Source of the DNA: Polyangium spumosum
GTDB taxonomy: Bacteria; Myxococcota_A; Polyangia; Polyangiales; Polyangiaceae
DNA: 64,000 nucleotides
Assembly (NCBI RefSeq): GCF_009649845.1
Contig: NZ_WJIE01000001.1
Coordinates: 62,001 to 126,000, forward strand
Direction of reading: 5' to 3'
The notes beneath the pieces were generated by a model. That model was not told where the DNA came from. It did not search any database and saw only the letters and a program-made list of their open reading frames with translations. This document shows positions 6,021-18,562 of this stretch, piece after piece (position 1 is the first letter of the stretch; each line of letters begins with the position of its first letter). The position numbers and the translations under genes were made by a program.

Positions 6021-7970
6021 TCAGTGTTCGTCGATCGGAATGCCGAAGGCCGGGTCCTCGTAGAGCCGGTCGAAGATGGGGGCGAACTTCTTTTCGATGT
6101 TCTTTCGTTTCACCTTGAGCGTCGGCGTCACCTCGTCCTCCTCGAGGGAAAAATCCCGGTCGAGCAGGTGGACGCGCTTGATGCCCTCCACGCGCGCGAG
6201 CCTCGTATTCGCGCGACGCACGGCCGACGCCACGCGCTCTCGGATCTCGGGATCGGCCGTGGCCTTCTCCATCACCGCGGCGAGGGCCGGCGGGCGGGAG
6301 AGCGGGCTCGCGAGCAAGGCGAGGCGCAGCGCCTCGGCCTCCGGCTCCGGGAGCAGGCTCTTTGCTTTCGCCCATTCCACGGCCTCGAGCGGGTGGATCG
6401 TCACGATCGCGGTGCAATACGCCCGCCGGTCGCCGTGCGCGTGCACCTGGCTGATGAGCGTGCCCTGCGCCTTGATCTCGTTCTCCACGTTCGCGGGGCT
6501 GATGTTTTTCCCGCCCGACGTGATGATGAGGTGCTTCTTGCGATCGACGATGAAGACGAACCCGTCCGCGTCCTTCTTGCCGATGTCGCCCGTGTGCAGC
6601 CAGCCCTCCTCGTCGATCATCTCGCGCGTCGCCTCGGGGTTCTTGTAATACCCCTTGAACACGTTCGGGCCCCGCACGAGGATCTCGCCGTCGTCCGCGA
6701 TGTGATCCTCCACGAACGGGAGCGCGCGGCCGACGGAGCCGAGGCGGACCTGGCCAGGGCGATTGCCGTGCGTGACGACCGTGGCCTCGGTCATGCCGTA
6801 CATCTCGTAAATGGGCAGGCCCGCGGCCCAGAAGAAGGCGAGGATCGGGCGCGGGATCGGCGCCGCCCCCGTGACGAAGCGCTTGACGCGCCCCCCGAAG
6901 GCCTCGCGGACCCGGGAGAAGACGAGCTTGTCGGCCACGCGATGCGCGAGCCGGAGCGGCAGGGAAGGCTCTTCCCCGCGTTGCCAGGCCTCCACGACCG
7001 CGAGGCCCGTGGCCTCGGCCCACCGAAACACGCGCCTCCGCGCCGGCGGGGCCTTGTCGACCTCGGCCTGGATGCGGGCGTAGGCCTTCTCGAAGATACG
7101 CGGGACGCTGCCGAAGAGCGTCGGGCGCACCTCCTTGAGCTCCTCGAGCACCGCGGGCACGCTCGTCGCGAACGCGGTGGCGATGCCGTGGTCGATGCGG
7201 CCCCAGAACGCGAGGATCCGCTCGGCCGCGTGCGCCATCGGCAAAAACGAGAGCGCCATGTCCGAACGAGCGAACGAATTGAAATGGACGCCGGCGAGGG
7301 TCACGAGGATGTTCTCGTGCGAGATCATCGCGCCCTTGGGCGGGCCGGTCGTGCCGCTCGTGTAAATGAAGAGCGCCGTGTCGCCGGGGACGATGGCGGC
7401 GACGCGCTCCGCGACGAGGGGAGGGTCACCCGGCGCGTCGAGGGCCTCGTCCCAGCCGAGGAGCCAGGCGTGCTCGCGCAACGTATCTTCGAGGCCCCGC
7501 GTGTCCCATACGACGACGAGCTCGAGCTTGGGCATGTCGTTCTTGACGGCGAGGATCTTCTCGACCTCGTCCTTGCCCTCGACGAACGCGACACGCACGT
7601 CCGCGTGATCGAGGACGTACGCGAGTTGCCCCGGGGCGAGCGTGGGGTAGGCGCCGACCGTGACCAGCGCGGCGAGCTGTCCGCCGACGTCGCAGATGCA
7701 CCACTCGGGGCGGGTGCTGCCGATGATGCCGATCTTGTCGCCGGGCGCGAGGCCCCGCCTGGCGAGGAAGGTCGCGAGCGCCGTGGCGCGGGCCCGGAAC
7801 TCGGCCCAGGTCGTGGATCGCCATTCGCCGTTTTTCTTGGCCTTCCACGCGATGGCGGTCGGCGTCGCCTCGGCGCGGCGCAGGAAGAGGTCGGGCAAGG
7901 AGCGCGCCGCTTGGGCGAGCGGGACGGCGGGATCGGGCGGCGGGGTGGTTCCGTCCTTCCGGAGGAGCAT
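6021..7970 (-). CDS. Long-chain acyl-CoA synthetase (AMP-forming)
   Basis: The 649-residue enzyme should activate fatty acids to acyl-CoA through an acyl-adenylate in the cytoplasm or at the inner membrane. The AMP/phosphate-binding motif YTSGTTGPPKGAM lies near residue 205, and the adenylate-forming motif YEMYGMTEATVVTHG near 390. The GDIGKKDADGF and IVDRKKHLIITSGGKN motifs lie near 465-490. The long C-terminal part resembles FadD15/eukaryote-like ligases. Next downstream on the same strand is fabG, 214 bases away across palindromic sites, so the two may be co-regulated rather than strictly in one operon. The start lies about 75 bases from the divergent peroxidase gene. Chain-length preference cannot be read from sequence. 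Confidence 0.9.
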   Translation of the reverse strand: MLLRKDGTTPPPDPAVPLAQAARSLPDLFLRRAEATPTAIAWKAKKNGEWRSTTWAEFRARATALATFLARRGLAPGDKIGIIGSTRPEWCICDVGGQLAALVTVGAYPTLAPGQLAYVLDHADVRVAFVEGKDEVEKILAVKNDMPKLELVVVWDTRGLEDTLREHAWLLGWDEALDAPGDPPLVAERVAAIVPGDTALFIYTSGTTGPPKGAMISHENILVTLAGVHFNSFARSDMALSFLPMAHAAERILAFWGRIDHGIATAFATSVPAVLEELKEVRPTLFGSVPRIFEKAYARIQAEVDKAPPARRRVFRWAEATGLAVVEAWQRGEEPSLPLRLAHRVADKLVFSRVREAFGGRVKRFVTGAAPIPRPILAFFWAAGLPIYEMYGMTEATVVTHGNRPGQVRLGSVGRALPFVEDHIADDGEILVRGPNVFKGYYKNPEATREMIDEEGWLHTGDIGKKDADGFVFIVDRKKHLIITSGGKNISPANVENEIKAQGTLISQVHAHGDRRAYCTAIVTIHPLEAVEWAKAKSLLPEPEAEALRLALLASPLSRPPALAAVMEKATADPEIRERVASAVRRANTRLARVEGIKRVHLLDRDFSLEEDEVTPTLKVKRKNIEKKFAPIFDRLYEDPAFGIPIDEH

Positions 7971-8045
7971 GCGGCATCATCTTCGACCTCCGGCCGCTCG
8001 TCCATGCCTCTTGCGTACCCACCACGGGCCCCCTAAGCAGGCGGG

Positions 8046-8654
8046 ATGAAGCTCCTTCGGTTCGGGTGGGTCGTCTTCGCGGGGATCCTCGGTTGCGAGA
8101 GCGGCTCGTTGCCTTCGGCCTCTCCCAGGGGCGCGCCGGAGCCGGCCGGGGGCGCCGCGGTCCAGGAAGGGAAGAAGATGAGCCTGCATGAATTCACGGT
8201 GAAGACGATCCTCGGCGAGGAGCGCTCGCTCGGAGATTTCCGGGGCAAGGTCGTGCTCGTGGTCAACGTGGCCTCGGAGTGCGGCTACACGCCGCAATAC
8301 GCGGGCCTCGAGCGGCTGCACGAGCGCTTCGAGGGCAAAGGGTTCGCCGTGCTCGGCTTCCCCTCGAACGACTACGGCGCGCAGGAGCCGGGGACCGACC
8401 AGGAGATCGCCACGTTCTGCACGAGCAAGTACGGCGTGAAGTTCCCCATGTTCTCGAAGATCCCGGTGAAGGGCAGCGGCAAACATCCGCTGTATGCCTT
8501 CCTCACGCAGGCGGCGCCGGCGGGCGAGGTGAAGTGGAACTTCGAAAAATTCCTCGTCGGCAAGGACGGGACGGTGATCGGCCGGTTCCCGTCGTCCGTC
8601 GAGCCCGAGGACACGAAGCTCGTTCAGGCGATCGAAGAGGCGCTCGCTCGTTGA
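8046..8654 (+). CDS. Lipoprotein glutathione peroxidase (thioredoxin-type GPx)
   Basis: A 202-residue peroxidase that should reduce peroxides in the cell envelope. The N-terminus carries a lipobox ending ILGC (Cys17) and a Pro/Ala-rich linker before the GPx domain starts near residue 46. The peroxidatic Cys79 lies in NVASECGYT. Gln113 lies in YGAQEPG, and Trp164-Asn165 in KWNFEKF complete the catalytic set. Cys125 (TFCTSKY) is placed as the resolving Cys, which suggests thioredoxin rather than glutathione as reductant. The usual Cys of the FPCNQFG motif is Ser107 (FPSNDYG). Most bacterial GPx proteins are cytoplasmic, so the lipoprotein form is a variation. It converges on the next gene with a three-base gap. 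Confidence 0.88.
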   Translation: MKLLRFGWVVFAGILGCESGSLPSASPRGAPEPAGGAAVQEGKKMSLHEFTVKTILGEERSLGDFRGKVVLVVNVASECGYTPQYAGLERLHERFEGKGFAVLGFPSNDYGAQEPGTDQEIATFCTSKYGVKFPMFSKIPVKGSGKHPLYAFLTQAAPAGEVKWNFEKFLVGKDGTVIGRFPSSVEPEDTKLVQAIEEALAR

Positions 8655-8657
8655 CCT

Positions 8658-9689
8658 TCAGAACGTGAGCGCCAGCTTGCCGACCGTGCCGCCGCCTTCG
8701 AGCGCGCGGTGCGCGTCGGCCACGCGCTCGGCGGGGAACGTCGTCACGGGCGGCGGCGTGATCCGGCCCTCGTCGATCCACCCGAGCAGCTTCGTCATGT
8801 ATTCGCGGAGCAGATCCTCGCGGTGGAAGAGGTACGAGAGGTTGAACGCGAGCACGCTCTTGTTGTCGTTCGTCAGGTCGAGCGGGTTGTACCGGGGCGT
8901 GCGCAGCCAATCGACGGCGAGCTTGATCCAGTTCGGCCGTCCGCCCTTGCGCGGCATCATCGTGTGGAAGCCGTACACGACGAGTTTCCCCGACGGGGCG
9001 AGGTGGCGGTAGCTCTGGCCGAGCGTCTCCACGCCGTTCGCGTCGAGCGCGACGTCGTAGCCCTCGGGCGCGAGCCGCTCGGCCACGGCCCAGAGCGGCT
9101 CGACGCTCTTGTCGATGACCGCGTCGGCCCCGAGCTTGCGCGCGACGGCGACCTTGTGGCTCGCGCCGACGACGCCGATCACGCGGCACCCCGCGATCTT
9201 CCCGAGCTCGACGAGCGCGCTGCCCACGCCGCCGGCCGCCGAGTGGACGAGCACGTTCATGCCGGGCCGCACGTTCGCGAGGTCGAAGAGCGCGTGATAC
9301 GCGGTCAGGAACACCGCGGGGAAGCCGGCGGCCTCGGCCACGGAAAAACCCTTCGGGAGCGGGAAGACCTGATGCGCGGGGACGCAGACGCGGCTCCCGT
9401 AGCCGCCGAAGCGGGTGACGGCGAAGACGGGCGCGCCGGGCGCGGGGCCCTCCGTGTTTGGCCCGAGCGCCGCGACCTTGCCCGCGACCTCGAAGCCGGG
9501 CGTGATGGGCCAGCCGACGTATTTCTTCGCCGACTCGTAGAGGCCCATCCGCACGATACAATCGGCGTAGTTCACGCCCGCGGCCTCGACGTCGACGAGG
9601 ATCTCGCCGGGCCCGGGGCTGGGATCCGGATGCTCTTCGAGCTTCAGACGATCGTAGCTGCCGGGCCCGTGGATCACGACCTTCCGCAT
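8658..9689 (-). CDS. NADPH:quinone-oxidoreductase-like zinc-independent MDR protein
   Basis: A 343-residue medium-chain dehydrogenase/reductase. The N-terminal GroES-like part contains GVNYADCIVRMGLY. The Rossmann part has the cofactor motif VHSAAGGVGSALVELGK near residue 155. The Cys ligands of the structural zinc are absent, as in quinone oxidoreductases and the VAT-1 group, which it resembles around AEAAGFPAVFLTAYHALFDL. Likely reaction: NADPH-dependent reduction of a quinone or enone. The physiological substrate is unknown. It is transcribed alone, convergent with the peroxidase gene. Confidence 0.82.
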   Translation of the reverse strand: MRKVVIHGPGSYDRLKLEEHPDPSPGPGEILVDVEAAGVNYADCIVRMGLYESAKKYVGWPITPGFEVAGKVAALGPNTEGPAPGAPVFAVTRFGGYGSRVCVPAHQVFPLPKGFSVAEAAGFPAVFLTAYHALFDLANVRPGMNVLVHSAAGGVGSALVELGKIAGCRVIGVVGASHKVAVARKLGADAVIDKSVEPLWAVAERLAPEGYDVALDANGVETLGQSYRHLAPSGKLVVYGFHTMMPRKGGRPNWIKLAVDWLRTPRYNPLDLTNDNKSVLAFNLSYLFHREDLLREYMTKLLGWIDEGRITPPPVTTFPAERVADAHRALEGGGTVGKLALTF

Positions 9690-9718
9690 GACGAGCGGAG
9701 GTTATCCCGCGAGCGAGC

Positions 9719-11128
9719 TCAGGGCGAGGTCTTGCCGACGGGCAGCGCGACGATCGTCTTCACGCTCCGCGCGGCCGGGTCGAAGAACACGATGTCGTTC
9801 GAGTCCCCGTCGTCGAGCACGAGGCGGTCACGCGTGGGCAGGATGTTCACGTGCTCGGGGCTGAACGTCGTCGGGATCGCCTCGATCTCGCCCGCCGCGA
9901 GGTCGAGCCGGAAGAGCGACTGATCGTCGACGATCCACATCTCCTTGCGGCCGACGCGGCTGACGAACTCGTCGAGGCCGACGCCGGGGCCTTCCATCTG
10001 CGTGGATCTGTCCTGGTCCACGTCGTAGAGCACGAGCCGCTGATCGCCGTTCGAGGAGCCGACGACCACGAAGTTGCCGTCGCGGCTCACGAAGTACGAG
10101 ATGCCGCCCTCGAGGGTCACGGGCTCGGGATCGACCTCGAGCGTCGCGGCGTCGACGAGCCAGAGCTCCTGGTTGCCGTTCATGTCCTGATCGCCGTACG
10201 ACACGATCGTCGAGCCGTCGGGCGTGAAGCCCACGGGCCCACGCGCGCCGGGGACGGCGCGTATCTCCTGCGTCGTCGTGTCGAGCACGAGCAGCTCGTG
10301 CGTGTAGACGATCTCGTCGTTCGGCTGCACCTCGGCCTTGCGCACGGGGAAGACGACGTACTTGTCGTCCGGGCTCGTGCCGACCCACGTGAACGAGGCG
10401 CCGAGATCCCACGCGACGTTCGGCACCTCGATGTCGAACACGCGGTTCGGCCAGAACGCCGAGCCCGGCTCCTTCTCGAAGCCGAGGATGGTGAGCTCCT
10501 GCATCGACCACGCGAGGAGGCGCGCCCGCGGCGTGGGCGTGCCTTGGTCGTAAAAGACGATCGCCACGAGCGTGTCGCTCCCGTTCAGGAACATGGCCTC
10601 GAGCCACTCGCCGTCGTGCGGGATCACGTGCTTCGCGAGCGTCTCGGCCTCGAGGACGTGGATCGGGAACTGCTGCGAGGTGTTGTCGGCGACGCCGATG
10701 AACTTGCGGCTCGGGCTCATGCGAGTGCCGTGGTAGCGGACGTCGAGCTCCACGCTCTTCTTCAGCGTGAGCGTCTCGTGATCGAAGAGGTCGAGCCGAT
10801 CCTTGTTGTTCTCCTCGCTCATGACGAGCAGGCCCGACGCCGGGAAGAGCAGCCGCGGATCGTCGCGGCCCGTGAGATCCGCGGCCTCTCGCACGAGGCC
10901 CGTGTCGGGATCGATCGCGAAGAGGGTCTTCGCGGGGATCTGGCCGGGCGTGCTCGTGTCGTCCGTCTCGCTGGCGAGCACGAACGACGTCTCCGTGCGG
11001 TCGTCGACGGCGATGGCGCCGTTGCCGAGCCACGTGTCCTGGCCCGGGTTGTTCTCGCCGAACGAGAGGCCCGTACAGCCGGTGAGGGCGAGCGTCGAGA
11101 CGAGGGCGAGGTAGGGAAGTCGAAGCAT
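9719..11128 (-). CDS. Lipoprotein with beta-propeller-like repeats
   Basis: The 469-residue protein begins with a signal peptide and lipobox (TLALTGC, Cys17), so it should be anchored in the envelope. The rest is a series of TolB/WD-like blades, seen as recurring segments such as LFAIDPDTG, LVLDTTTQEI, LWLVDAATLEV and LVLYDVDQD, each followed by short strands. No catalytic residues are evident, and a scaffold or ligand-binding role is the usual inference. AGGAGG lies seven bases before the ATG, supporting the start. It follows the rtcB-prfH-164aa unit on the same strand after 124 bases, so read-through expression is possible but not implied by function. Confidence 0.7.
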   Translation of the reverse strand: MLRLPYLALVSTLALTGCTGLSFGENNPGQDTWLGNGAIAVDDRTETSFVLASETDDTSTPGQIPAKTLFAIDPDTGLVREAADLTGRDDPRLLFPASGLLVMSEENNKDRLDLFDHETLTLKKSVELDVRYHGTRMSPSRKFIGVADNTSQQFPIHVLEAETLAKHVIPHDGEWLEAMFLNGSDTLVAIVFYDQGTPTPRARLLAWSMQELTILGFEKEPGSAFWPNRVFDIEVPNVAWDLGASFTWVGTSPDDKYVVFPVRKAEVQPNDEIVYTHELLVLDTTTQEIRAVPGARGPVGFTPDGSTIVSYGDQDMNGNQELWLVDAATLEVDPEPVTLEGGISYFVSRDGNFVVVGSSNGDQRLVLYDVDQDRSTQMEGPGVGLDEFVSRVGRKEMWIVDDQSLFRLDLAAGEIEAIPTTFSPEHVNILPTRDRLVLDDGDSNDIVFFDPAARSVKTIVALPVGKTSP

Positions 11129-11252
11129 GACAAGTCCTCCTGAATGCGCGTCGCGCGGCCGCCGCGGTCTTCAAGAAGAATGCCATCCGGGCGCGTTTCG
11201 CGGATGTCCGCTCCGCGTCGAGGCGTCATCGCCGCGACGCCTGACAGCGACG

Positions 11253-11747
11253 TCATGCCCCGCGCGAACGCTTCTTCCTTCGCAGGTGCGCCTCGGCGAC
11301 GGAGCAGAGCAGGCCCGTCCGCGGGCAAACGTAAAAGGATTGCCAGGGGCCGTGGCTCCGGAGCGGGTAAAACACATCCCGCCGCGGGCCGTTGCCCTCG
11401 GGGCTGTGCGGGACGCCGTCGATCATGACGGGGTTGCGTTCGACGAACTGGAGCACGTGATCGAAGACGTGCTTCTGCACGGCGCTGCTCGGCGAGAGGT
11501 GGGCGCGGATCTCCGACCAGACGGCGTCCCACGGGCGGCCCACGCGGCGCGCGAGGAAGCGCCGCAGCGGGGCGAAGTTCTCGGAGAGCACGCGCGTCTG
11601 GCCGCGGTACTTCATGCCCTCCTTGAGCGGCGCGGCCTCGGGATCGGCCTTCATCCGCGTCGCATACCGCCCCTTGCCCGCGCCGCGCCCGCGGCCCCAG
11701 TCGTACCGCGGTCGCTCGATGATGAGCTCGAACATGTCCTTTCGCAT
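11253..11747 (-). CDS. Unnamed conserved protein, third gene of the rtcB-prfH unit
   Basis: The protein has 164 residues. The N-terminus is strongly basic (MRKDMFELIIERPRYDWGRG and a run of Arg/Lys/Gly to about 32). A middle segment NFAPLRRFLARRVGRPWDAV (about 56-75) is followed by a helical part and DGVPH. The C-terminus has FYVCPRTGLLC, a CX6C pair that could bind metal, and ends RRKKRSRGA. Proteins with the same RVGRPWD core occur in myxobacteria and planctomycetes to my recollection, but I know no function. It starts 19 bases after the prfH stop on the same strand, so it should be induced with rtcB and prfH. Basic termini and context suggest an RNA- or ribosome-binding partner (inference). 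Confidence 0.72.
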   Translation of the reverse strand: MRKDMFELIIERPRYDWGRGRGAGKGRYATRMKADPEAAPLKEGMKYRGQTRVLSENFAPLRRFLARRVGRPWDAVWSEIRAHLSPSSAVQKHVFDHVLQFVERNPVMIDGVPHSPEGNGPRRDVFYPLRSHGPWQSFYVCPRTGLLCSVAEAHLRRKKRSRGA

Positions 11748-11766
11748 CTCGTCTCCTCCCTGAACA

Positions 11767-12405
11767 TCAGCGCAACACGAGCGCGCCCTCGTGCGAGAGC
11801 ACGTACGAGCGCACGGGCGCGCCGCGCTCGAGCCGCGCGTGCGACGACCAGCGCTGCGCCTCCTTCGCGGCCGCCGCGGCCATCACCCGCTTCCGCAAGA
11901 GCGCCGCGATCCGCGCGAGCGCCCGTCGCAGGTTCGCCCGCTGCGATCGCTCGTCCGTGACGCGCACGACGATCCCCGAAGGCACGTGCCTCGCGCGGAC
12001 CGCCGTCTCCGTCTTGTTCACGTTTTGCCCGCCGGGGCCGCTCGCGCGCATGGTCGTGATCTCCACGTCACGCGGGTCGATCGTCGCCCCGTCGTCCACA
12101 CAGGCGCCCTCGTCCTCGTGCACCACGACGGACACGAACCAGCGCTTGCGCGAGGCCTTCCCGCGGTCGGGGCTACGCGCGACGAGCGCGTGTGTGCCCA
12201 CCTCGCTCGCGAGCAGCGCCGCGTCCCCGGCGACGACGAGCTCCACCGAACGTGGCGCGTCCTCGTCGCCGTGGCTCACGGTCTCCTCGACGACGAGGCC
12301 ACGCGCCTCGCAGAGCTCGGCCAGCCGGGCCGCGAGCAGCGCGACGAACCTGCGCACCTCGACAGGCCCGTAACCGGCCGTGATCTGCACGAGCGTCTTG
12401 CTCAC
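11767..12405 (-). CDS. prfH: Peptide chain release factor homologue PrfH (rescue of damaged ribosomes)
   Basis: A 212-residue release-factor-like protein with the GGQ motif at 125-127 in RASGPGGQNVNKTETAVRA and the downstream RVTDERSQRANLRRAL typical of PrfH. It lacks the codon-recognition domain of RF1/RF2. Known PrfH proteins act with RtcB2 on ribosomes whose 16S rRNA decoding centre has been cut: PrfH releases the stalled peptide and RtcB reseals the RNA. The GTG start overlaps the rtcB stop (GTGA), so translation is coupled and the two proteins are made together. The longer open frame upstream (to 12879) is antisense-type coding inside rtcB and is rejected. Confidence 0.92.
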   Translation of the reverse strand: MSKTLVQITAGYGPVEVRRFVALLAARLAELCEARGLVVEETVSHGDEDAPRSVELVVAGDAALLASEVGTHALVARSPDRGKASRKRWFVSVVVHEDEGACVDDGATIDPRDVEITTMRASGPGGQNVNKTETAVRARHVPSGIVVRVTDERSQRANLRRALARIAALLRKRVMAAAAAKEAQRWSSHARLERGAPVRSYVLSHEGALVLR

Positions 12406-13640
12406 TGCTTCACCGTCACGACCGGCACGAGCGAGGCGATCGGCGAGGCGAGGCCCTCGTCGCAGAGGCTCGCGACCACGGGCTCGATCGGCTTGTACGC
12501 GTCGGGGTGCTCCTCGTAGAGCAGGTCCGTGTCGTCGCAGACGATACGGCCGCCGAGCGCCGTGCGGCCGAGCTCGGCGCGTTTGTACCGCGCGGCGAGC
12601 TTCGACCGCGCCTCGGTGCGCGTCATGCGGCGGCCCGCGCCGTGCGCGACCGACGCGAGCGCGCCCTCGTGCCCGCTGCCGACGAGCACCCAGGAGGGCG
12701 CGCCGCGGCTGCCGAGCACGACCGTGGCCTCGCCGCGGCTCGCGGGCGCGGCGCCCTTGCGGTGGATCCACACGGGTCGCCCGCCGATCTCCTCGCGCCG
12801 GATCGTGTTGTGCACGATGTCGACCGCGCCGCGCACCTTGTCCCTCCGCAGGGCCGCGAGCGCGCGGAGCAGCCGGCAAGCCACGAGGAAGCGGTTCGCC
12901 TGCGCGAACCGCACCGCGCCCGCGAGGTCGCCGAGGTAGGCGTCGATCGCCTCGCCCATGAGGACCACGTCGCCCCAGCGCCGCCCGATCTGCGCGCCGA
13001 GCCCACGCGATCCCGTGTGCGCGAGCGCGACGAGGCTGCCTTTTTCGAGGCCCATCACGTCCGCGCGGGCCTCGTCGCGCACCTCGGCGACGCGCGTGAT
13101 CTCGGCGAAGTGGTTGCCGCTGCCGATGCTGCCGAGCGCGCGGCCGTGCGAGGGATCGCGGTAGGCGGAAGGATCACCGCTCGGGCCGAGATCGAGCTCG
13201 CGCTCGCGCTCGGCCATCGCGGCGATGTCGTCCGGCACGCCCGCGACCCCGGCGAGGCCCTTCGCGCCCTCGCGCCAGCAGGCGTCGAAGACCTCGAGCG
13301 GATCGCAGTCCTCGAGCGGCTCCTCGTCCATCGCGGCGCGGACGCGGCGCTCGAGTTTGTCCACGGCGCGCGGGGACGCGGTCGTGGCGAAGAGGAGCAC
13401 GCCGCAGCCGGCGTCGCCGCCGACGAGGTACGGCAAGACGCGCTCCTCGAAGGCGAACGCGGCGCCGATGGGGCCGCGCCCGGCGTGGAGATCGGGCATG
13501 CCCGCGGCGCGCACGCAGCCGGGCAGCTCGGCGACGCGCGTGAACTGCGTGATCGCGTCGCCCTCCATCCAGACGTCGGGGCGGGCGAAGATGCGGGCGT
13601 GCGGGGGGAGGGAAGGTTCGGGGAAAAAAGTAGTGCCCAT
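12402..13640 (-). CDS. rtcB: RNA-splicing ligase RtcB, PrfH-associated type
   Basis: A GTP- and Mn-dependent ligase that joins RNA 3'-phosphate or 2',3'-cyclic phosphate ends to 5'-OH ends. In the 412 residues, the metal-binding segments GMPDLHAGRGPIG (47-59) and GGDAGCG (74-80, Cys79) are present. SGNHFAE lies near 173, and the guanylylated His is His333 in AHGAGRR. It is shorter than RtcB1 enzymes and, with prfH directly downstream, fits the RtcB2 group that repairs cleaved 16S rRNA. A -24/-12 promoter at 13685-13701 should give a leader of roughly 35 bases. The ATG at 13640 opens on the conserved N-terminus. Confidence 0.94.
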   Translation of the reverse strand: MGTTFFPEPSLPPHARIFARPDVWMEGDAITQFTRVAELPGCVRAAGMPDLHAGRGPIGAAFAFEERVLPYLVGGDAGCGVLLFATTASPRAVDKLERRVRAAMDEEPLEDCDPLEVFDACWREGAKGLAGVAGVPDDIAAMAERERELDLGPSGDPSAYRDPSHGRALGSIGSGNHFAEITRVAEVRDEARADVMGLEKGSLVALAHTGSRGLGAQIGRRWGDVVLMGEAIDAYLGDLAGAVRFAQANRFLVACRLLRALAALRRDKVRGAVDIVHNTIRREEIGGRPVWIHRKGAAPASRGEATVVLGSRGAPSWVLVGSGHEGALASVAHGAGRRMTRTEARSKLAARYKRAELGRTALGGRIVCDDTDLLYEEHPDAYKPIEPVVASLCDEGLASPIASLVPVVTVKQ

Positions 13641-13684
13641 GGCAGGTATCTCGAATCGTCGTTGATTGACTTCGCCACCCCGTA

Positions 13685-13701
13685 TTGCGCGAACCGTGCC
13701 A
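13685..13701 (-). promoter_or_regulatory. Sigma-54 (-24/-12) promoter of rtcB-prfH
   Basis: Read on the minus strand the site is TGGCACGGTTCGCGCAA: a perfect TGGCACG -24 element, and a GC doublet exactly ten bases after the GG. The -12 element is GCGCA rather than TTGCA. Transcription would begin near 13675, about 35 bases before the rtcB ATG. The divergent gene encodes a sigma-54 activator with GAFTGA, so promoter and activator fit. Confidence 0.85.
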
Positions 13702-13742
13702 GCCCGATTTGCCCGGAAATTCGACCGTGGGCCCGGTCGGAT

Positions 13743-13801
13743 GGTGCATCGTGCATCAGAACGATGGTGCAGACCGCATCACCCGTGGTGTACGATGCAC
13801 C
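13743..13801. promoter_or_regulatory. Palindromic upstream activator sites between rtcB and the rtcR-like gene
   Basis: GGTGCATCGT (13743-13752) and its exact complement ACGATGCACC (13792-13801) form a 10-bp inverted repeat. GATGGTGCA also recurs at 13740-13748 and 13763-13771. The elements lie about 45-100 bases upstream of the -24 element, the usual place for sigma-54 activator binding. The right arm overlaps the ATG proposed for the activator gene, so bound activator could also control its own expression. Confidence 0.6.
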
Positions 13802-15336
13802 AGGTGAAGCGGGCGCTCATCACGTGGTCGGATGCGGGCGTGACGGGCCCCGTGCCCTCGCATCAGGTGGCGCGGCCGGCGAGTGATCGGGGGCCGGTGC
13901 TCCGGCTGCTCGACCACACGGAGGGCCGCTACGAGGCCGCGTGGGTGCTGACGATCCCGCAGGGCGAGACGCCCGCCCGCTCGCTCTGCCGATCCCTCGA
14001 GGCGCGCGCGCCGAAGGTCGAGCTCTGCGTGATCGACGCCGACGATCCGACCGACTACGGCAAGCTCTTTCGCCTGCTCGGCCCGGTCGTGGAGCGCGCG
14101 AAGGCGGAGCTCGTCGGCGCCGGCCTCGCGCTCGACGTCCTGCTCTCGGCGGGCACGCCGCAGGCGCAGACGCTCTGGGTGATCCTGGTGCAAGCGGGCC
14201 TCTTGCCCGCGCGGATGCTCCAGGTGATCCCGCCTGCGTTCGTGCCCGTGCCGCACCCGAAGGCGGTGCGGGAGGTGCGGCTCGACATCGAGGGCTTCCC
14301 CGAGATCCGCGCGATGCGCGACGAGCTCTTGCGCCTGCGGGCCGCCGCGCAGAAGGGCGCGTCGTCGTTGCTCGGCGAGAGCGCGCCGATGGTGGAGCTG
14401 CGGGCGAAGATCGAGCGGGTCGCGGCGAGCGACGCGCCGGTGCTCGTGCTGGGTGAGACGGGCACGGGCAAGGAGCTCTGCGCGCGGGAGATCCACGCGC
14501 TCTCGCCGCGCAAGGACGGGCCCTTCGTGGCGGAGAACTGCTCGGTGTTCGCGGAGGGCGTGCTGTCGAGCGAGCTCTTCGGGCACGAGGCGGGCGCGTT
14601 CACGGGCGCGGGCAAGCGGCGGCGGGGCGTGTTCGAGCAGGCGCACGGCGGCACGCTTTTCCTCGACGAGATCGGCGAGATGCAGCCGCGGGTGCAAGCG
14701 GCGCTCCTGCGCGTGCTGCAGGAGGGGACGTTGCGGCGCGTGGGCGGCGAGGCTCGGGTGGACGTCGACGTGCGGATCGTGGCCGCGACGCACCGGGATC
14801 TCGGGGCGCTGGTGAAGGCGGGCGCGTTCCGGGAGGATCTCTACTATCGATTGCGCGGGGCGACGCTCTTGGTGCCGCCGCTGCGGGCGCGGCCGGGGGA
14901 CGTGGAGCGGCTCGTGGAGTCGTTCCTGTCGGAGATCCGCGCGAAAAAAGGCGGGCGGCGGCTCCGCGTGACGCGCGAGGCCATGCGCGCGCTCGCGAGC
15001 CACGTATGGCCGGGCAACGTGCGCGAGCTGCGCGCCGAGGTGATGCGGTGGGTGGTGTTCTGCGATGACGTGGTGAACGTGTCGGATCTCGCCCCGGAGA
15101 TCCGGAGCGGAGGCGGCAGCGTCAGCACGAGCGGAGGCGGGACCGAGGGCGAGAGCGGCGGCGACGTGCGGCCTCTGCGGGACGTGGTCGAGGCCGCCGA
15201 GCGAGCGGCCCTCGCGAGCGCGCTCGTGGCGGAGGAGGGCAACCTGAGCCGCGCCGCGCGGGCCCTCGGGATCGACAGGAACACGCTGAAGCGGAAGATG
15301 CGGGCCTTCGGGATGGCCGGGGACGACGAAGGGTAG
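13795..15336 (+). CDS. rtcR: RtcR-like CARF-domain sigma-54-dependent transcription activator
   Basis: A 513-residue activator of sigma-54 RNA polymerase. Residues 1-185 form a CARF/Rossmann-like sensor with SAGTPQAQT (118-126), the ligand-loop position in nucleotide-sensing CARF domains. The AAA+ domain has Walker A GETGTGKE (220-227), GAFTGA (267-272) and Walker B LFLDEIGEM (288-296). A Fis-type helix-turn-helix (NLSRAARALGIDRNTLKRKM) ends the protein. By analogy with E. coli RtcR, RNA fragments with 2',3'-cyclic phosphate are the likely inducer. ATG 13795 opens MHQVKRALITW; GTG 13804 is an alternative that leaves the operator arm outside the gene. It is divergent from rtcB. Confidence 0.9.
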   Translation: MHQVKRALITWSDAGVTGPVPSHQVARPASDRGPVLRLLDHTEGRYEAAWVLTIPQGETPARSLCRSLEARAPKVELCVIDADDPTDYGKLFRLLGPVVERAKAELVGAGLALDVLLSAGTPQAQTLWVILVQAGLLPARMLQVIPPAFVPVPHPKAVREVRLDIEGFPEIRAMRDELLRLRAAAQKGASSLLGESAPMVELRAKIERVAASDAPVLVLGETGTGKELCAREIHALSPRKDGPFVAENCSVFAEGVLSSELFGHEAGAFTGAGKRRRGVFEQAHGGTLFLDEIGEMQPRVQAALLRVLQEGTLRRVGGEARVDVDVRIVAATHRDLGALVKAGAFREDLYYRLRGATLLVPPLRARPGDVERLVESFLSEIRAKKGGRRLRVTREAMRALASHVWPGNVRELRAEVMRWVVFCDDVVNVSDLAPEIRSGGGSVSTSGGGTEGESGGDVRPLRDVVEAAERAALASALVAEEGNLSRAARALGIDRNTLKRKMRAFGMAGDDEG

Positions 15337-15354: not shown

Positions 15355-15711
15355 TCAGAACCGGATGCCGTCGCGCGCCGAGGCCGCGTCGATGCACGAG
15401 AAGAGGGCTCCTCGTTCGTCGCCGCACCGATCGTTGTTGTTCTCGTCTTCGGTCGAGAAGCGGGCTTCACGCGCGTCGCACGTGCCCTGCTCCTCGACGC
15501 AGACCGTGTACGTCGTCCAGGCGTCGCCGCAGCCGTAGGCGTCTGCCACGTCCTCCTGCGTCGCGAGGTCGTTGCACGTCCGGATCTCGGTCTCGTCGCT
15601 GCAGTGCTCGCACTCGCAGATGACGCCGCAGACGACCTGCGCCCGGGAGCAGCCCACGGCGCCGGCCAGGCCCAGGAAGAGGAAGGTATTCAAGAGGATC
15701 GTTCGAATCAT
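15355..15711 (-). CDS. Small Cys-rich lipoprotein, second copy of type B
   Basis: The 118-residue precursor has lipobox AVGC (Cys21) and a Cys-rich mature part with the pattern RAQVVCGVICECEHCSD, a central YGCGDAWTTYTVC and a C-terminal ENNNDRCGDE...CIDAASARDG. It is a clear paralogue of the protein at 16194-16553: AQV-C, CEHCSD/CQHCSD, ADxYGC, DAW, GTCD, ENN-DRCG and AASA-DG all match. Even Cys spacing suggests disulphides in the envelope. It follows a type A lipoprotein by 13 bases, exactly as the other B copy does. No function is known. Confidence 0.75.
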   Translation of the reverse strand: MIRTILLNTFLFLGLAGAVGCSRAQVVCGVICECEHCSDETEIRTCNDLATQEDVADAYGCGDAWTTYTVCVEEQGTCDAREARFSTEDENNNDRCGDERGALFSCIDAASARDGIRF

Positions 15712-15724
15712 GGTCCTACCTCCT

Positions 15725-16123
15725 TCAGTTGCAGCGCGAATACGCGGCCTGCTCGGCCTCGCAGGTGTCCCGCTGCGCCTCGGGGATGGCGTAGGCCTTC
15801 AGGGAACACAGACCATTGCTGCAGACGGCCGGGCCGCCGCAGTCCCCGTCGTCCATGCACATCTGCCCCGAGTTCACGCTCGTGCACTCGAGCAGGGGCT
15901 CGGTGCAAGCGGCGAGCGTGTCGAACTCGTCGCCGCAGCCGATGTCGATCGCCGTCTCGCGCTGGCCCTCCGCGGCCACGATGCAGGCGTCGATGTCGGC
16001 CTCGTTGCCGCCCAGGCACGCCTCCTGCGCCTCGCAGACCCCCGCGATGTCGGGCCCGCAGCCCGCCGAGAACGCAAGGGCGACGAGCCCGAGCCCGGCG
16101 TAAAGCAAGTTCTTGGGTTTCAT
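15725..16123 (-). CDS. Small Cys-rich lipoprotein, second copy of type A
   Basis: The 132-residue precursor has lipobox FSAGC (Cys22), then GPDIAGVCEAQEACLGGNEAD and further Cys-containing segments (GCGDEFDTLAACTEPLLEC, MCMDDGDCGG, CSNGLC). It is a paralogue of the protein at 16568-16963, sharing GPDI-x-CEAQEACLGGNEAD, GCG-EFD-L-ACTEPLL and the DDxDC segment. The DxDC...CxxGxC part resembles short EGF-like or Cys-knot folds common in myxobacterial surface proteins. The ATG is preceded by AGGGAG, which can pair in a hairpin at 16127-16144. Function unknown. Confidence 0.75.
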   Translation of the reverse strand: MKPKNLLYAGLGLVALAFSAGCGPDIAGVCEAQEACLGGNEADIDACIVAAEGQRETAIDIGCGDEFDTLAACTEPLLECTSVNSGQMCMDDGDCGGPAVCSNGLCSLKAYAIPEAQRDTCEAEQAAYSRCN

Positions 16124-16126
16124 GGT

Positions 16127-16144
16127 CACTCCCTGGCCGGAGTG
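16127..16144 (-). promoter_or_regulatory. Hairpin overlapping the ribosome binding site of the 15725-16123 gene
   Basis: On the minus strand CACTCC, a six-base loop and GGAGTG end four bases before the ATG at 16123. The right arm contains the Shine-Dalgarno GGAG. Pairing would hide the ribosome site, so this copy of the lipoprotein pair may be translationally controlled. Confidence 0.35.
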
Positions 16145-16193
16145 TAGACGGATCGAGGATGGGGCGTCCATCGGATACAGCCCCGGGGATCCA

Positions 16194-16553
16194 TCAGAAC
16201 CAGTTGCCGTCGTGCGCCGAGGCCGCCTCGATGCAGTCGAGGAGGCCCCGCGCCTCCTTGCCGCACCGGTCCGCGTTGTTCTCTTCCCGCGTCGAGAACA
16301 GGTCGCTGGTCTCGTCGCACGTGCCCTTCTCCTCGTAGCAGACCGTGAAGGCCGTCCAGGCGTCACTGCAACCGTACACGTCCGCCACCTCCTCCCGCGC
16401 GGCGTGAGATTCGCAAACGCGAATCTCGTCATGGTCGCTGCAATGCTGGCACGCGCATTCGAGCTCGCAGATCACCTGCGCGCGGGAAGAGCAGCCAAGG
16501 GCCGCGGCCCCGAGGGAGAGGAGAAGGAGGGTATTCACCAGAAGTCGACGCAT
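16194..16553 (-). CDS. Small Cys-rich lipoprotein, first copy of type B
   Basis: The 119-residue precursor has lipobox AALGC (Cys21). The mature part contains RAQVICELECACQHCSD, ADVYGCSDAW and ENNADRCGKE...CIEAASAHDG, aligning throughout with 15355-15711. The start at 16553 gives a compact signal peptide (MRRLLVNTLLLLSLG) with GAGGAG ten bases upstream. An in-frame ATG at 16571 overlaps the stop of the preceding gene (ATGA) and could couple translation. It stands 14 bases from the type A gene upstream. Confidence 0.75.
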   Translation of the reverse strand: MRRLLVNTLLLLSLGAAALGCSSRAQVICELECACQHCSDHDEIRVCESHAAREEVADVYGCSDAWTAFTVCYEEKGTCDETSDLFSTREENNADRCGKEARGLLDCIEAASAHDGNWF

Positions 16554-16567
16554 GTCTCCGCGGCTCC

Positions 16568-16963
16568 TCATAAAATGCAACGGTGGTCCTCGTTCGCCTC
16601 GTCCGCGCAGACGGACTGGTGCTCGACGGGCACTTCGAAGGTCGTGCACGCCCCATCCCTGCATACGCCGTTGAAGTAGCAGTCGTCGTCCGACGTGCAC
16701 ATGTTCGACGAGGTCACCGTCGAGCACGCGAGCAGCGGCTCCGTGCACGCGAAGAGCGCGTCGAACTCCTCGCCGCACCCGACGCCGTACGCCGCGTCGC
16801 GGTACGCTTCGTGCTGCACGATGCAGGCCTCGAGGTCGGCCTCGTTGCCGCCAAGGCACGCCTCCTGCGCCTCGCACATCGCCTCGATGTCCGGCCCGCC
16901 GCACCCCGTCGCGAGGGCCACGACGAGGCCGAGCCCCGCAAAAAACAAGCTGGTTTCTTTCAT
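16568..16963 (-). CDS. Small Cys-rich lipoprotein, first copy of type A
   Basis: The 131-residue precursor has lipobox LATGC (Cys21), then GPDIEAMCEAQEACLGGNEAD, GCGEEFDALFACTEPLLAC, DDDCYFNGVC and RDGAC. It is the first member of an A-B-A-B arrangement of small lipoprotein genes read leftward. Its ATG lies 17 bases after the stop of the DUF3037 gene, so it may belong to the HipA-like/DUF3037 transcription unit. The conserved acidic and Cys residues suggest disulphide-bonded, possibly Ca-binding modules, but no function is known. Confidence 0.75.
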   Translation of the reverse strand: MKETSLFFAGLGLVVALATGCGGPDIEAMCEAQEACLGGNEADLEACIVQHEAYRDAAYGVGCGEEFDALFACTEPLLACSTVTSSNMCTSDDDCYFNGVCRDGACTTFEVPVEHQSVCADEANEDHRCIL

Positions 16964-16980
16964 GGTTGTTGAAACGTCCG

Positions 16981-17376
16981 TCACCGCGCACGCACGGGCC
17001 GCACGAGTTTGTCGAGCAATCGCTCGAGCGCCACGTCCGGATCGTCGCACAGGCCCACGTGCGTGTCCGAGGTCTGGATCATCGTGCTGCGCGTGGCGAC
17101 GAGCCAGGAGAAGCGCTCCTTGCGCGAGAGGAGCCCGATCGGCCCGGCCTCGGGCCCGCCCTCGCAGATACGCGGGATGGCCGCGAGGCTCCGGCGCACG
17201 GCCTCCAGGTCGACGTCGGGCGCGATCGCGCAGAGGCGCGCCTCGTCGAGCTCGATCCGCGCGCCGAGCCAGTCGCGCGCGGCGCAATGAAGGATGACGC
17301 CCGCGTTGATCTGCTCGCCGCGCTCGACGCGGGGCACGACGCGCACGATGGCATACTCAAAGCTCGGCTTGCGCAC
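16981..17376 (-). CDS. DUF3037 family protein, partner of the HipA-like kinase
   Basis: The 131-residue cytoplasmic protein begins VRKPSFEYAIVRVVPRVERGE and continues INAGVILHCAARDWLGARI, the hallmark of DUF3037. The GTG start at 17376 lies inside the 3' end of the kinase gene (20-base overlap) and is chosen because the family's N-terminus begins there. The longer frame to 17436 adds unlike Arg-rich sequence. DUF3037 genes commonly follow HipA-like (HipA_2) genes. The biochemical role is unknown, and a regulatory or substrate partner of the kinase is an inference from this pairing. Confidence 0.82.
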   Translation of the reverse strand: MRKPSFEYAIVRVVPRVERGEQINAGVILHCAARDWLGARIELDEARLCAIAPDVDLEAVRRSLAAIPRICEGGPEAGPIGLLSRKERFSWLVATRSTMIQTSDTHVGLCDDPDVALERLLDKLVRPVRAR

Positions 17377-18142: not shown

Positions 18143-18170
18143 GCGGCGCGAAGTATACCCCGATACCGTC

Positions 18171-18562
18171 CGCAGGGTCGATCGATGGTGTCGACACCTT
18201 CCCCGATGGTGTCCGCAGGGTCGATCGATGGTGCCCGCAGGGTCGATCGATGGTGCCCGCAGGGTCGATCGATGGTGTCGACACCTTCCTCGATGCCGTC
18301 GACACCTTCCCTGATGCCGCCCGCAGGGTCGATCGATGGTGCCCGCAGGGTCGATCGATGGTGTCGACACCTTCCCTGATGCCGCCCGCAGGGTCGATCG
18401 ATGGTGCCCGCAGGGTCGATCGATGGTGTCGACACCTTCCTCGATGCCGCCCGCAGGGTCGATCGATGGTGCGCGCAGGGTCGATCGATGGTGTCGACAC
18501 CTTCCTCGATGCCGCCCGCAGGGTCGATCGATGCCGCCCGCACCTTCCTCGATGCCGCCCGC
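18171..18562. repeat. Compound tandem repeat array (22-bp and 43-bp units, 65-bp period) between divergent genes
   Basis: The core CGCAGGGTCGATCGATG occurs 11 times, beginning at 18171, 18214, 18236, 18258, 18322, 18344, 18387, 18409, 18452, 18474 and 18517. Steps are 22 or 43 bases. From 18322 on the 22+43 pattern gives an exact 65-base period. The longer steps include TGTCGACACCTTCCT. Each core contains the palindrome TCGATCGA, and each 43-base step the palindrome TGTCGACA. The array fills most of the 460 bases between the HipA-like gene and the P450 gene, which are divergent. Spacers are identical rather than unique, so this is not CRISPR. No gene is seen in the gap. Confidence 0.92.

Follow-up and report, generated by a model that had tools for sequence, protein, structure and literature searches.

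For RtcB to mend a ribosome it must locate a break within the assembled particle and seal it, and which factors take part in this beside the release factor PrfH is a question touched by a locus of Polyangium spumosum in which rtcB and prfH are followed by a third, small gene, here called X. In Escherichia coli, RtcB2-PrfH shields the cell from colicin E3 as a two-gene module (PMC9223846), in which, according to in vitro work cited there, PrfH frees the peptide from cleaved ribosomes and RtcB2 reseals the 16S rRNA; a two-gene operon is also described by Baranov 2006 (PMC1586002). That two genes suffice against colicin E3 in E. coli counts against a need for X. The window (the whole stretch of DNA that was analysed, 64,000 nucleotides) comes from a genome of 10.76 Mb in 61 contigs, and carries the operon as follows:

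12402..13640, minus strand: rtcB, release-factor-linked type, 412 aa (TIGR03073, 290.8 bits against a cut-off of 271.8).
11767..12405, minus strand: prfH, peptide chain release factor H, 212 aa, with a GTG start that overlaps the rtcB stop and with matches to TIGR03072 and the RF-1 domain.
11753..11760, minus strand: ribosome-binding site GGGAGGAG of X, called from the sequence.
11253..11747, minus strand: gene X, 164 aa, ATG start, encoding a basic, putatively accessory protein (called from its open reading frame, purifying selection, homologues and conserved linkage).

Judged by sequence, the rtcB-prfH-X operon looks intact. RtcB aligns with solved RtcB at the motifs GSGNHF, HTGSRG, HN and HGAGR and at the cysteine of D-x-x-C, which we take to be active-site residues. 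PrfH scores 162.3 bits with TIGR03072, 4 bits short of the cut-off of 166.65, and 93.2 bits with the RF-1 domain. Its best match in the PDB is release factor H (9mor), aligned from residue 2, and it is a class I release factor that has GGQ and is without the N-terminal domain of RF1 and RF2. The RtcB2-PrfH operon of E. coli ATCC25922 (PMC9223846) likewise combines a TIGR03073-type RtcB with an overlapping short GGQ release factor, whereas the operon of the window has X as a third gene and, in addition, a sigma-54-like promoter faced by a divergently transcribed activator of the RtcR type. No sigma-70 promoter or intrinsic terminator was found in scans of positions 11000-13900. The host genome holds four RtcB genes (on contigs C8, C5, C18 and C1), and an archease gene lies beside the canonical RtcB of C8.

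The original prediction had read X from the DNA as an ATG-started frame of 164 residues at 11253-11747 of the minus strand, with a N-terminus rich in Arg, Lys and Gly, the sequences RVGRPWD (aa 68-74) and CPRTGLLC (aa 141-148), a basic tail, and a spacing of 19 bases from prfH; all of these are borne out, the gap being 11748-11766, and GGGAGGAG sits 5 nt upstream of the X ATG. An orthologue with 81-86% identity is present in all five other genomes of the genus that were found by search, and dN/dS lies between 0.12 and 0.38 in 15 pairwise comparisons of six orthologues. The homologues and these ratios rule out a spurious open reading frame.

Searching with the single X sequence by tblastn gave matches in 12 of 59 related genomes, and a 14-row profile was positive in 27 of 377 Myxococcota genomes. 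Profile searches, which covered Myxococcota genomes and viral contigs, also yielded 24, 16 and 14 X loci in three scans of viral contigs, some contigs being shared between scans. Homologues are carried by Myxococcus phage Mx1 and by plasmid records, one of Novosphingobium and three of Variovorax. The family falls into two subfamilies, A starting with MRxDMxKVxVERPR and B with MSTKxLARTVIEGGR, and the homology of A and B is strongly indicated (hhalign probability 99.1, E 8e-19, 158 columns). Many members are about 220-330 aa long, and the short forms, which are those of Polyangium and some others, mostly end in a basic tail. Conservation is described here from alignment A3, which has 36 rows of subfamily A only and omits near-copies (L008, L018, L019, L023, L061, L067, L071) as well as L029, L076-L080, L091, L094 and L101.

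X has no match in four family libraries (Pfam, NCBIfam, PHROGs and PADLOC), which agrees with the earlier statement that no role could be named for its family. In Pfam no family appears up to an E value of 1; with the 36 members of A3 as queries, any Pfam family that appeared did so for one member alone (best E 0.031), and the best PHROGs match, at E 0.0013, involved a single member. No match was obtained with X in a sequence search of the PDB, and profile searches of PDB sequences returned chance-level matches only; ribosomal protein bS20, the best PDB profile match of subfamily B (E 0.13), was not counted as evidence.

Gene neighbourhoods were read by searching them for X, RtcB and PrfH with sequences and HMMs, and X adjoins rtcB and/or prfH in 22 genomes: six of the genus, 15 other Myxococcota (L024, L026, L027, L081, L082, L083, L085, L086, L087, L088, L089, L090, L091, L094 and L099) and one Novosphingobium plasmid (L021). 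The order is rtcB-prfH-X in the window and all five other genomes of the genus, rtcB-X-prfH in L082, L083, L086, L090 and L094, and X-rtcB-prfH in L085 and L021; X-rtcB without prfH in the flanks read is found in L026, L027 and L081, and X-prfH without rtcB in the 16-kb stretch of L091 (genome G376, 7312-10512), which has the same activator and promoter signature. In many lineages X is on the same strand as, and closely packed with, rtcB and/or prfH, and subfamily B is linked too (L099 and L027). L029 was not counted as linked, its X match being weak (E 1.7e-4) and its release-factor-type match lying about 6 kb away. In the X-rtcB locus L026 a DUF1272 gene directly follows rtcB (6927-7214).

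The association can also be counted across genomes. The TIGR03072 search matched 374 of the 377 Myxococcota genomes, RF1 and RF2 included, and for this reason release-factor-type RtcB was taken as the denominator; at E 1e-50 or better it is found in 28 of the 377, and in the control for this search E. coli was the sole match among 14 control genomes. X is present in 13 of these 28 genomes versus 14 of the 349 others (Fisher p = 1.1e-9, odds ratio 21, uncorrected for kinship and with four of the 13 belonging to the window's genus), and it adjoins the release-factor-type RtcB in 12 of the 13 genomes that have both. Some of the 14, for example G115 and G154, do have a linked rtcB-prfH that fell short of the threshold, and they lower the contrast that the test measures. 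The absence of X from 15 of the 28 genomes indicates that it is optional, and nine of the 30 loci of the TIGR03072 search, which have rtcB and prfH and no X in 1.5-kb flanks (L105, L107-L110, L114, L121, L122 and L125), are in line with this. The original prediction had proposed a partnership with RtcB and PrfH from a single linkage. Linkage now extends to 22 genomes and both subfamilies, in several gene orders and on a Novosphingobium plasmid, and the control region has a shared architecture, which makes the case far stronger: linkage across families leads us to reject X as a chance neighbour, and its link to the RtcB-PrfH pathway is well supported. We therefore regard X as an accessory dedicated to the RtcB-PrfH module of ribosome rescue and repair, though an optional part of it, a reading to which we give a probability of roughly 0.55.

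Not all copies of X are linked, however. Of the 27 genomes found by profile, 17 have a linked X and 10 an X that is unlinked in the flanks read, and among 45 X-bearing viral records (several of them fragments and some near-copies) an RtcB match occurs in five and an RF-1 domain in eight, so that X must be able to function in the absence of RtcB and PrfH as well. In a 46-row tree, linked copies occur in both subfamilies among phage and lone copies, requiring nine label changes by parsimony, of which at least three are forced by well supported branches, the bootstrap being not fully settled. This tree omits near-copies (L019, L023, L061, L067, L071, L079, L080), divergent or partial sequences (L029, L101, L076, L077, L078), the orthologues L007-L011, for which the window and L018 stand in as representatives of the genus, and, among viral loci, the later ones (L132-L160). 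On two viral contigs, L065 and L070, a VWA gene and RtcB lie downstream of X, with another VWA gene on the other side of X in L065; EF-Ts-like (L065) and GroEL-like (L070) proteins were seen by eye near X, and because of these the viral nature of the two contigs is uncertain. Macro-domain genes lie near the subfamily-B X and RtcB of L027 (9732-10199) and near X in phage Mx1 (L020, 2193-2690).

Such a distribution would also fit an X that is a phage-derived nucleic-acid-binding or counter-defence protein with a target of its own, tied to the operon by shared use in conflicts and not by a shared mechanism. The occurrence of X in phage Mx1 and in numerous viral contigs, most of which are without RtcB, the intermixing of linked, phage and lone copies on the tree, and the macro-domain neighbours all fit this idea, which we nevertheless consider distinctly unlikely: chance or loose co-travel hardly explains same-strand packing in 22 genomes, nor the placing of X between rtcB and prfH in the five loci of that gene order.

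If X is an accessory of the module, the question arises of how its operon is controlled. The region upstream of rtcB holds the following:

13686..13701, minus strand: sigma-54-like promoter TGGCACG-N4-GCGCA, 45 nt upstream of the rtcB ATG.
13742..13758, minus strand: dyad TGATGCACGATGCACCA, probable activator site.
13765..13781, minus strand: dyad TGATGCGGTCTGCACCA, probable activator site.
13795..15336, plus strand: divergent RtcR-type activator (CARF-AAA-HTH; PADLOC RtcR_PspF2 478.6 bits, Sigma54_activat 223.1 bits).

The activator was searched as 13789-15336 and as 13798-15336, and its matches to PADLOC RtcR_PspF2--CARF_AAA_HTH, Sigma54_activat and HTH_8 correspond to a CARF domain, a sigma-54 AAA+ domain and a Fis-type HTH. 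It is called RtcR-type, and not RtcR in the strict sense, because Pfam RtcR gives 15.9 bits, under the cut-off of 23.1. The RtcR-rtcBA operon of E. coli and Salmonella (PMC9650030, PMC7790460) likewise has a CARF-AAA-HTH sigma-54 activator over an rtcB operon, whereas here prfH and X replace rtcA and the activator is of the RtcR_PspF2 type. Relatives of the activator adjoin 16 of 28 release-factor-type RtcB loci (1.5-kb flanks), with and without X, and face 12 X operons, that of the window and 11 others.

The 12 gaps between activator and operon (window, L018, L019, L024, L082, L083, L086, L087, L088, L091, L094 and L099) were picked for having the activator beside them. Each of the 12 has paired dyads and a best sigma-54-like site that scores 12-15 of 15, a score reached by at most 3.4% of shuffles, and the 17-bp dyad TGRTGC-N5-GCAYCA occurs 32 times with up to two mismatches against 0.35 expected, the shuffles in both cases keeping base composition only. 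Over the whole window the sigma-54 pattern has 10 matches against 13.7 expected, which is not above chance, so the case for the promoter rests on place and conservation. The exact dyad is found in five places in the genome, versus four for a reversed control pattern, and as a tandem pair here only. The dyad also occurs at five of seven rtcB-prfH loci without X (L186, L187, L189, L190, L195, L199 and L201). Seven activator-less X-rtcB or X-rtcB-prfH loci (L021, L026, L027, L081, L085, L089 and L090) are without the dyad, and the control region is thus not common to all X operons. Around lone X, no dyad with up to one mismatch was found in L025, L028, L084, L092, L095-L097, L100 and L101, and L093 and L098 have single imperfect matches far from X; the dyad scans do not support a place for lone X in a putative dyad control system. 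Judging from these sequence features, we take an RtcR-like circuit to serve the rtcB-prfH-X operon.

Within X itself, three parts can be told apart:

11706..11747, minus strand: aa 1-14, the MRxDMxKVxVERPR motif, strongly conserved and of low pLDDT.
11301..11588, minus strand: core, aa 54-149, predicted to have a winged-helix-like order of elements and holding P60, G70, W73, V76, E79, H93, H97 and V102 (from AlphaFold2, conservation and weak fold matches of a longer relative).
11304..11327, minus strand: CPRTGLLC (aa 141-148), part of a FYVxPxxGxL strand-turn motif, its Cys pair not conserved.

X has a pI of 10.9, a net charge of +16 and 24 Arg, and this basic make-up, which had been noticed in the single sequence, holds across subfamily A, where 34 of 36 rows have a pI above 9 and 33 a positively charged linker beyond residue 14. 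Conservation of the N-terminal motif is high (R2 and D4 in 35 of 36 rows, M5 in 33, E11 in 34 and R14 in all 36), and the invariant or near-invariant residues of these rows are M1, R2, D4, M5, E11, R14, P60, L61, L65, G70, W73, V76, S78, E79, H93, H97, V102 and L147. The suggestion that CPRTGLLC forms a metal-like pair did not survive the alignment: Cys is found at position 141 in 12 of 36 rows and at 148 in 10, and even inside the genus the second Cys gives way to Arg in three of the five other X proteins. A zinc-binding CX6C pair is therefore rejected, and the alignment, being without conserved Cys pairs, gives no zinc ribbon in X.

In the AlphaFold2 model of X (mean pLDDT 72.9, 33 rows) most of aa 11-52 is of low confidence and the core is mostly confident. 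The predicted elements are helices at 54-67, 73-83 and 89-101, one bridge residue at 72, and strands at 107-109 and 112-116, giving aa 54-116 the alpha-beta-alpha-alpha-beta-wing-beta order of a winged helix. The model of a longer relative, L082 (mean pLDDT 81.3), has a similar order of elements and an extra confident C-terminal beta domain. Searches of the PDB with these two models, by Foldseek and VIA, found no convincing fold relative of X. For L082, Foldseek gave weak matches (best E 0.5) and VIA a best Z of 3.3 (5msm, 56 residues, rmsd 3.4), with PadR at 2.3, 5nbc at 2.2 and CggR at 2.0; for X, the sole VIA match was eglin C at Z 2.1. The weak VIA matches over the core (Z 2-3.3) include proteins that we take to be winged helices (Dcc1, cullin WHB, PadR and CggR), and that several of them are of this kind is suggestive only. 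Kinase, RNase H2C and eglin folds were set aside as short or of low Z. In BFVD, the long model matched an uncharacterised phage protein (E 8e-4) and a protein of Acinetobacter phage ME3 (E 0.026). The original prediction had proposed rRNA binding; structure prediction and fold comparison turned up no known enzyme fold unrelated to RNA, and the fold searches were uninformative on the proposal itself.

The winged-helix-like order of elements in both models, with DNA-binding winged helices such as PadR and CggR among the weak fold matches, raises the alternative that X is a regulator, tuning the sigma-54 promoter or touching the CARF sensor of the activator as RtcA/RtcB do with RtcR in E. coli, where RtcAB bind the CARF domain of RtcR (PMC9650030). 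We consider this unlikely. The operon already has an activator, which also faces rtcB-prfH operons without X; X occurs without the activator in L026, L027, L081, L085 and L089 (flanks fetched) and in phages; and a regulator of this kind would have no need of strongly basic termini or of a conserved N-terminal peptide.

To return to X as an accessory of rescue and repair, its basic composition suggests that it binds RNA or the ribosome. No RNA-binding domain was recognised in X by sequence, and a winged helix may instead bind DNA or protein. A peptide that is strongly conserved yet predicted to be flexible often folds upon a partner, and the N-terminal peptide, together with linker and core, would be what X uses to bind RNA, the likeliest target being the cleaved ribosome or its 30S subunit. 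In this way X could help to bring PrfH or RtcB to the site of damage or to keep them there, or could aid separation of the subunits ahead of ligation. Because X occurs with prfH alone in one lineage and with rtcB alone in three (in the flanks read), it probably acts on the shared substrate, the damaged ribosome, and would not be a fixed subunit of either enzyme. In large phages, X may serve by itself or together with further enzymes of repair, its substrates being ribosomes or tRNAs that host defence has cleaved.

Rescue factors offer a partial parallel. In ArfB, ArfA and SmpB, a basic flexible terminus recognises the stalled ribosome. X resembles them in its basic, low-confidence terminus, but it lacks GGQ, does not match the models of these factors, and has its conserved peptide at the N-terminus. 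Recognition of the stalled ribosome by the basic terminus of rescue factors is also found in Burroughs and Aravind 2019 (PMC6514570), where accessory genes of RFH-RtcB operons are described, namely a TPR protein, a pol-beta NTase, a zinc-ribbon protein with a basic helix and a charged helical orphan ('RFR'), and rRNA binding through zinc fingers or charged regions is proposed for such accessories. Accessory genes of these operons are thus already known, and X is a further such gene, likewise an extra gene in an RFH-RtcB neighbourhood. It differs from these accessories in having no zinc ribbon and in having phage homologues and a folded core; it was compared with the charged helical orphan (the fourth of them) by description only, and the two may be the same protein.

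The conserved polar residues of X (R2, D4, E11, R14, E79, H93 and H97) invite the further suggestion that it is an RNA end-processing enzyme or an RtcB cofactor, such as an end-healing enzyme or a functional stand-in for archease. Archease is a cofactor of RtcB, and like X it is a small protein encoded beside an RtcB, in this genome the canonical one; the X operon has no archease, and X could thus be the operon RtcB's own cofactor. However, no sequence relation of X to archease was found, and X is strongly basic. Neither archease (PF01951) nor any enzyme in Pfam or NCBIfam matches X, the fold searches gave no enzyme match of note, and in subfamily B E79 is missing from two of 10 rows and the His spacing differs. 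RtcB, moreover, requires no end healing after RNases that leave cyclic phosphate ends. We regard such a role as very improbable.

Its recurrence in the repair operon and its occurrence in large phages make X a promising candidate for a new repair helper. This third gene recurs, has a defined conserved peptide and belongs to operons with a readable control region (CARF activator, sigma-54-like promoter and dyads), so that what ribosome repair needs beyond PrfH can be tested directly, and the presence of X in large phages would tie bacterial ribosome repair to phage counter-defence. A bolder form of this reading, which we offer only tentatively and think rather doubtful, is that X founds an undescribed family found both in bacterial RtcB-PrfH operons and in large phages, that its conserved N-terminal peptide goes into damaged ribosomes to guide their rescue and religation, and that phages use X alone as a ribosome guard against RNase-based abortive infection. 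In the titles and abstract openings of the literature on PrfH/RtcB and RtcR operons we found no description of the family, priority not being established thereby. The parts of a jumbo-phage survey available to us (PMC7824862) discuss phage RtcB and ribosome rescue and make no mention of an X-like protein.

Two further features of the window lie beyond the activator. A run of small, Cys-rich, secreted or lipoprotein-like paralogues, recognised by eye in the list of open reading frames, occupies 15355-17287 of the minus strand, and at 18158-18542 there is a minisatellite with a 65-bp unit in 5.2 copies (86% matches), several of whose frames are open and would give IDRPCGRHRGRCRH-like repeats in translation.
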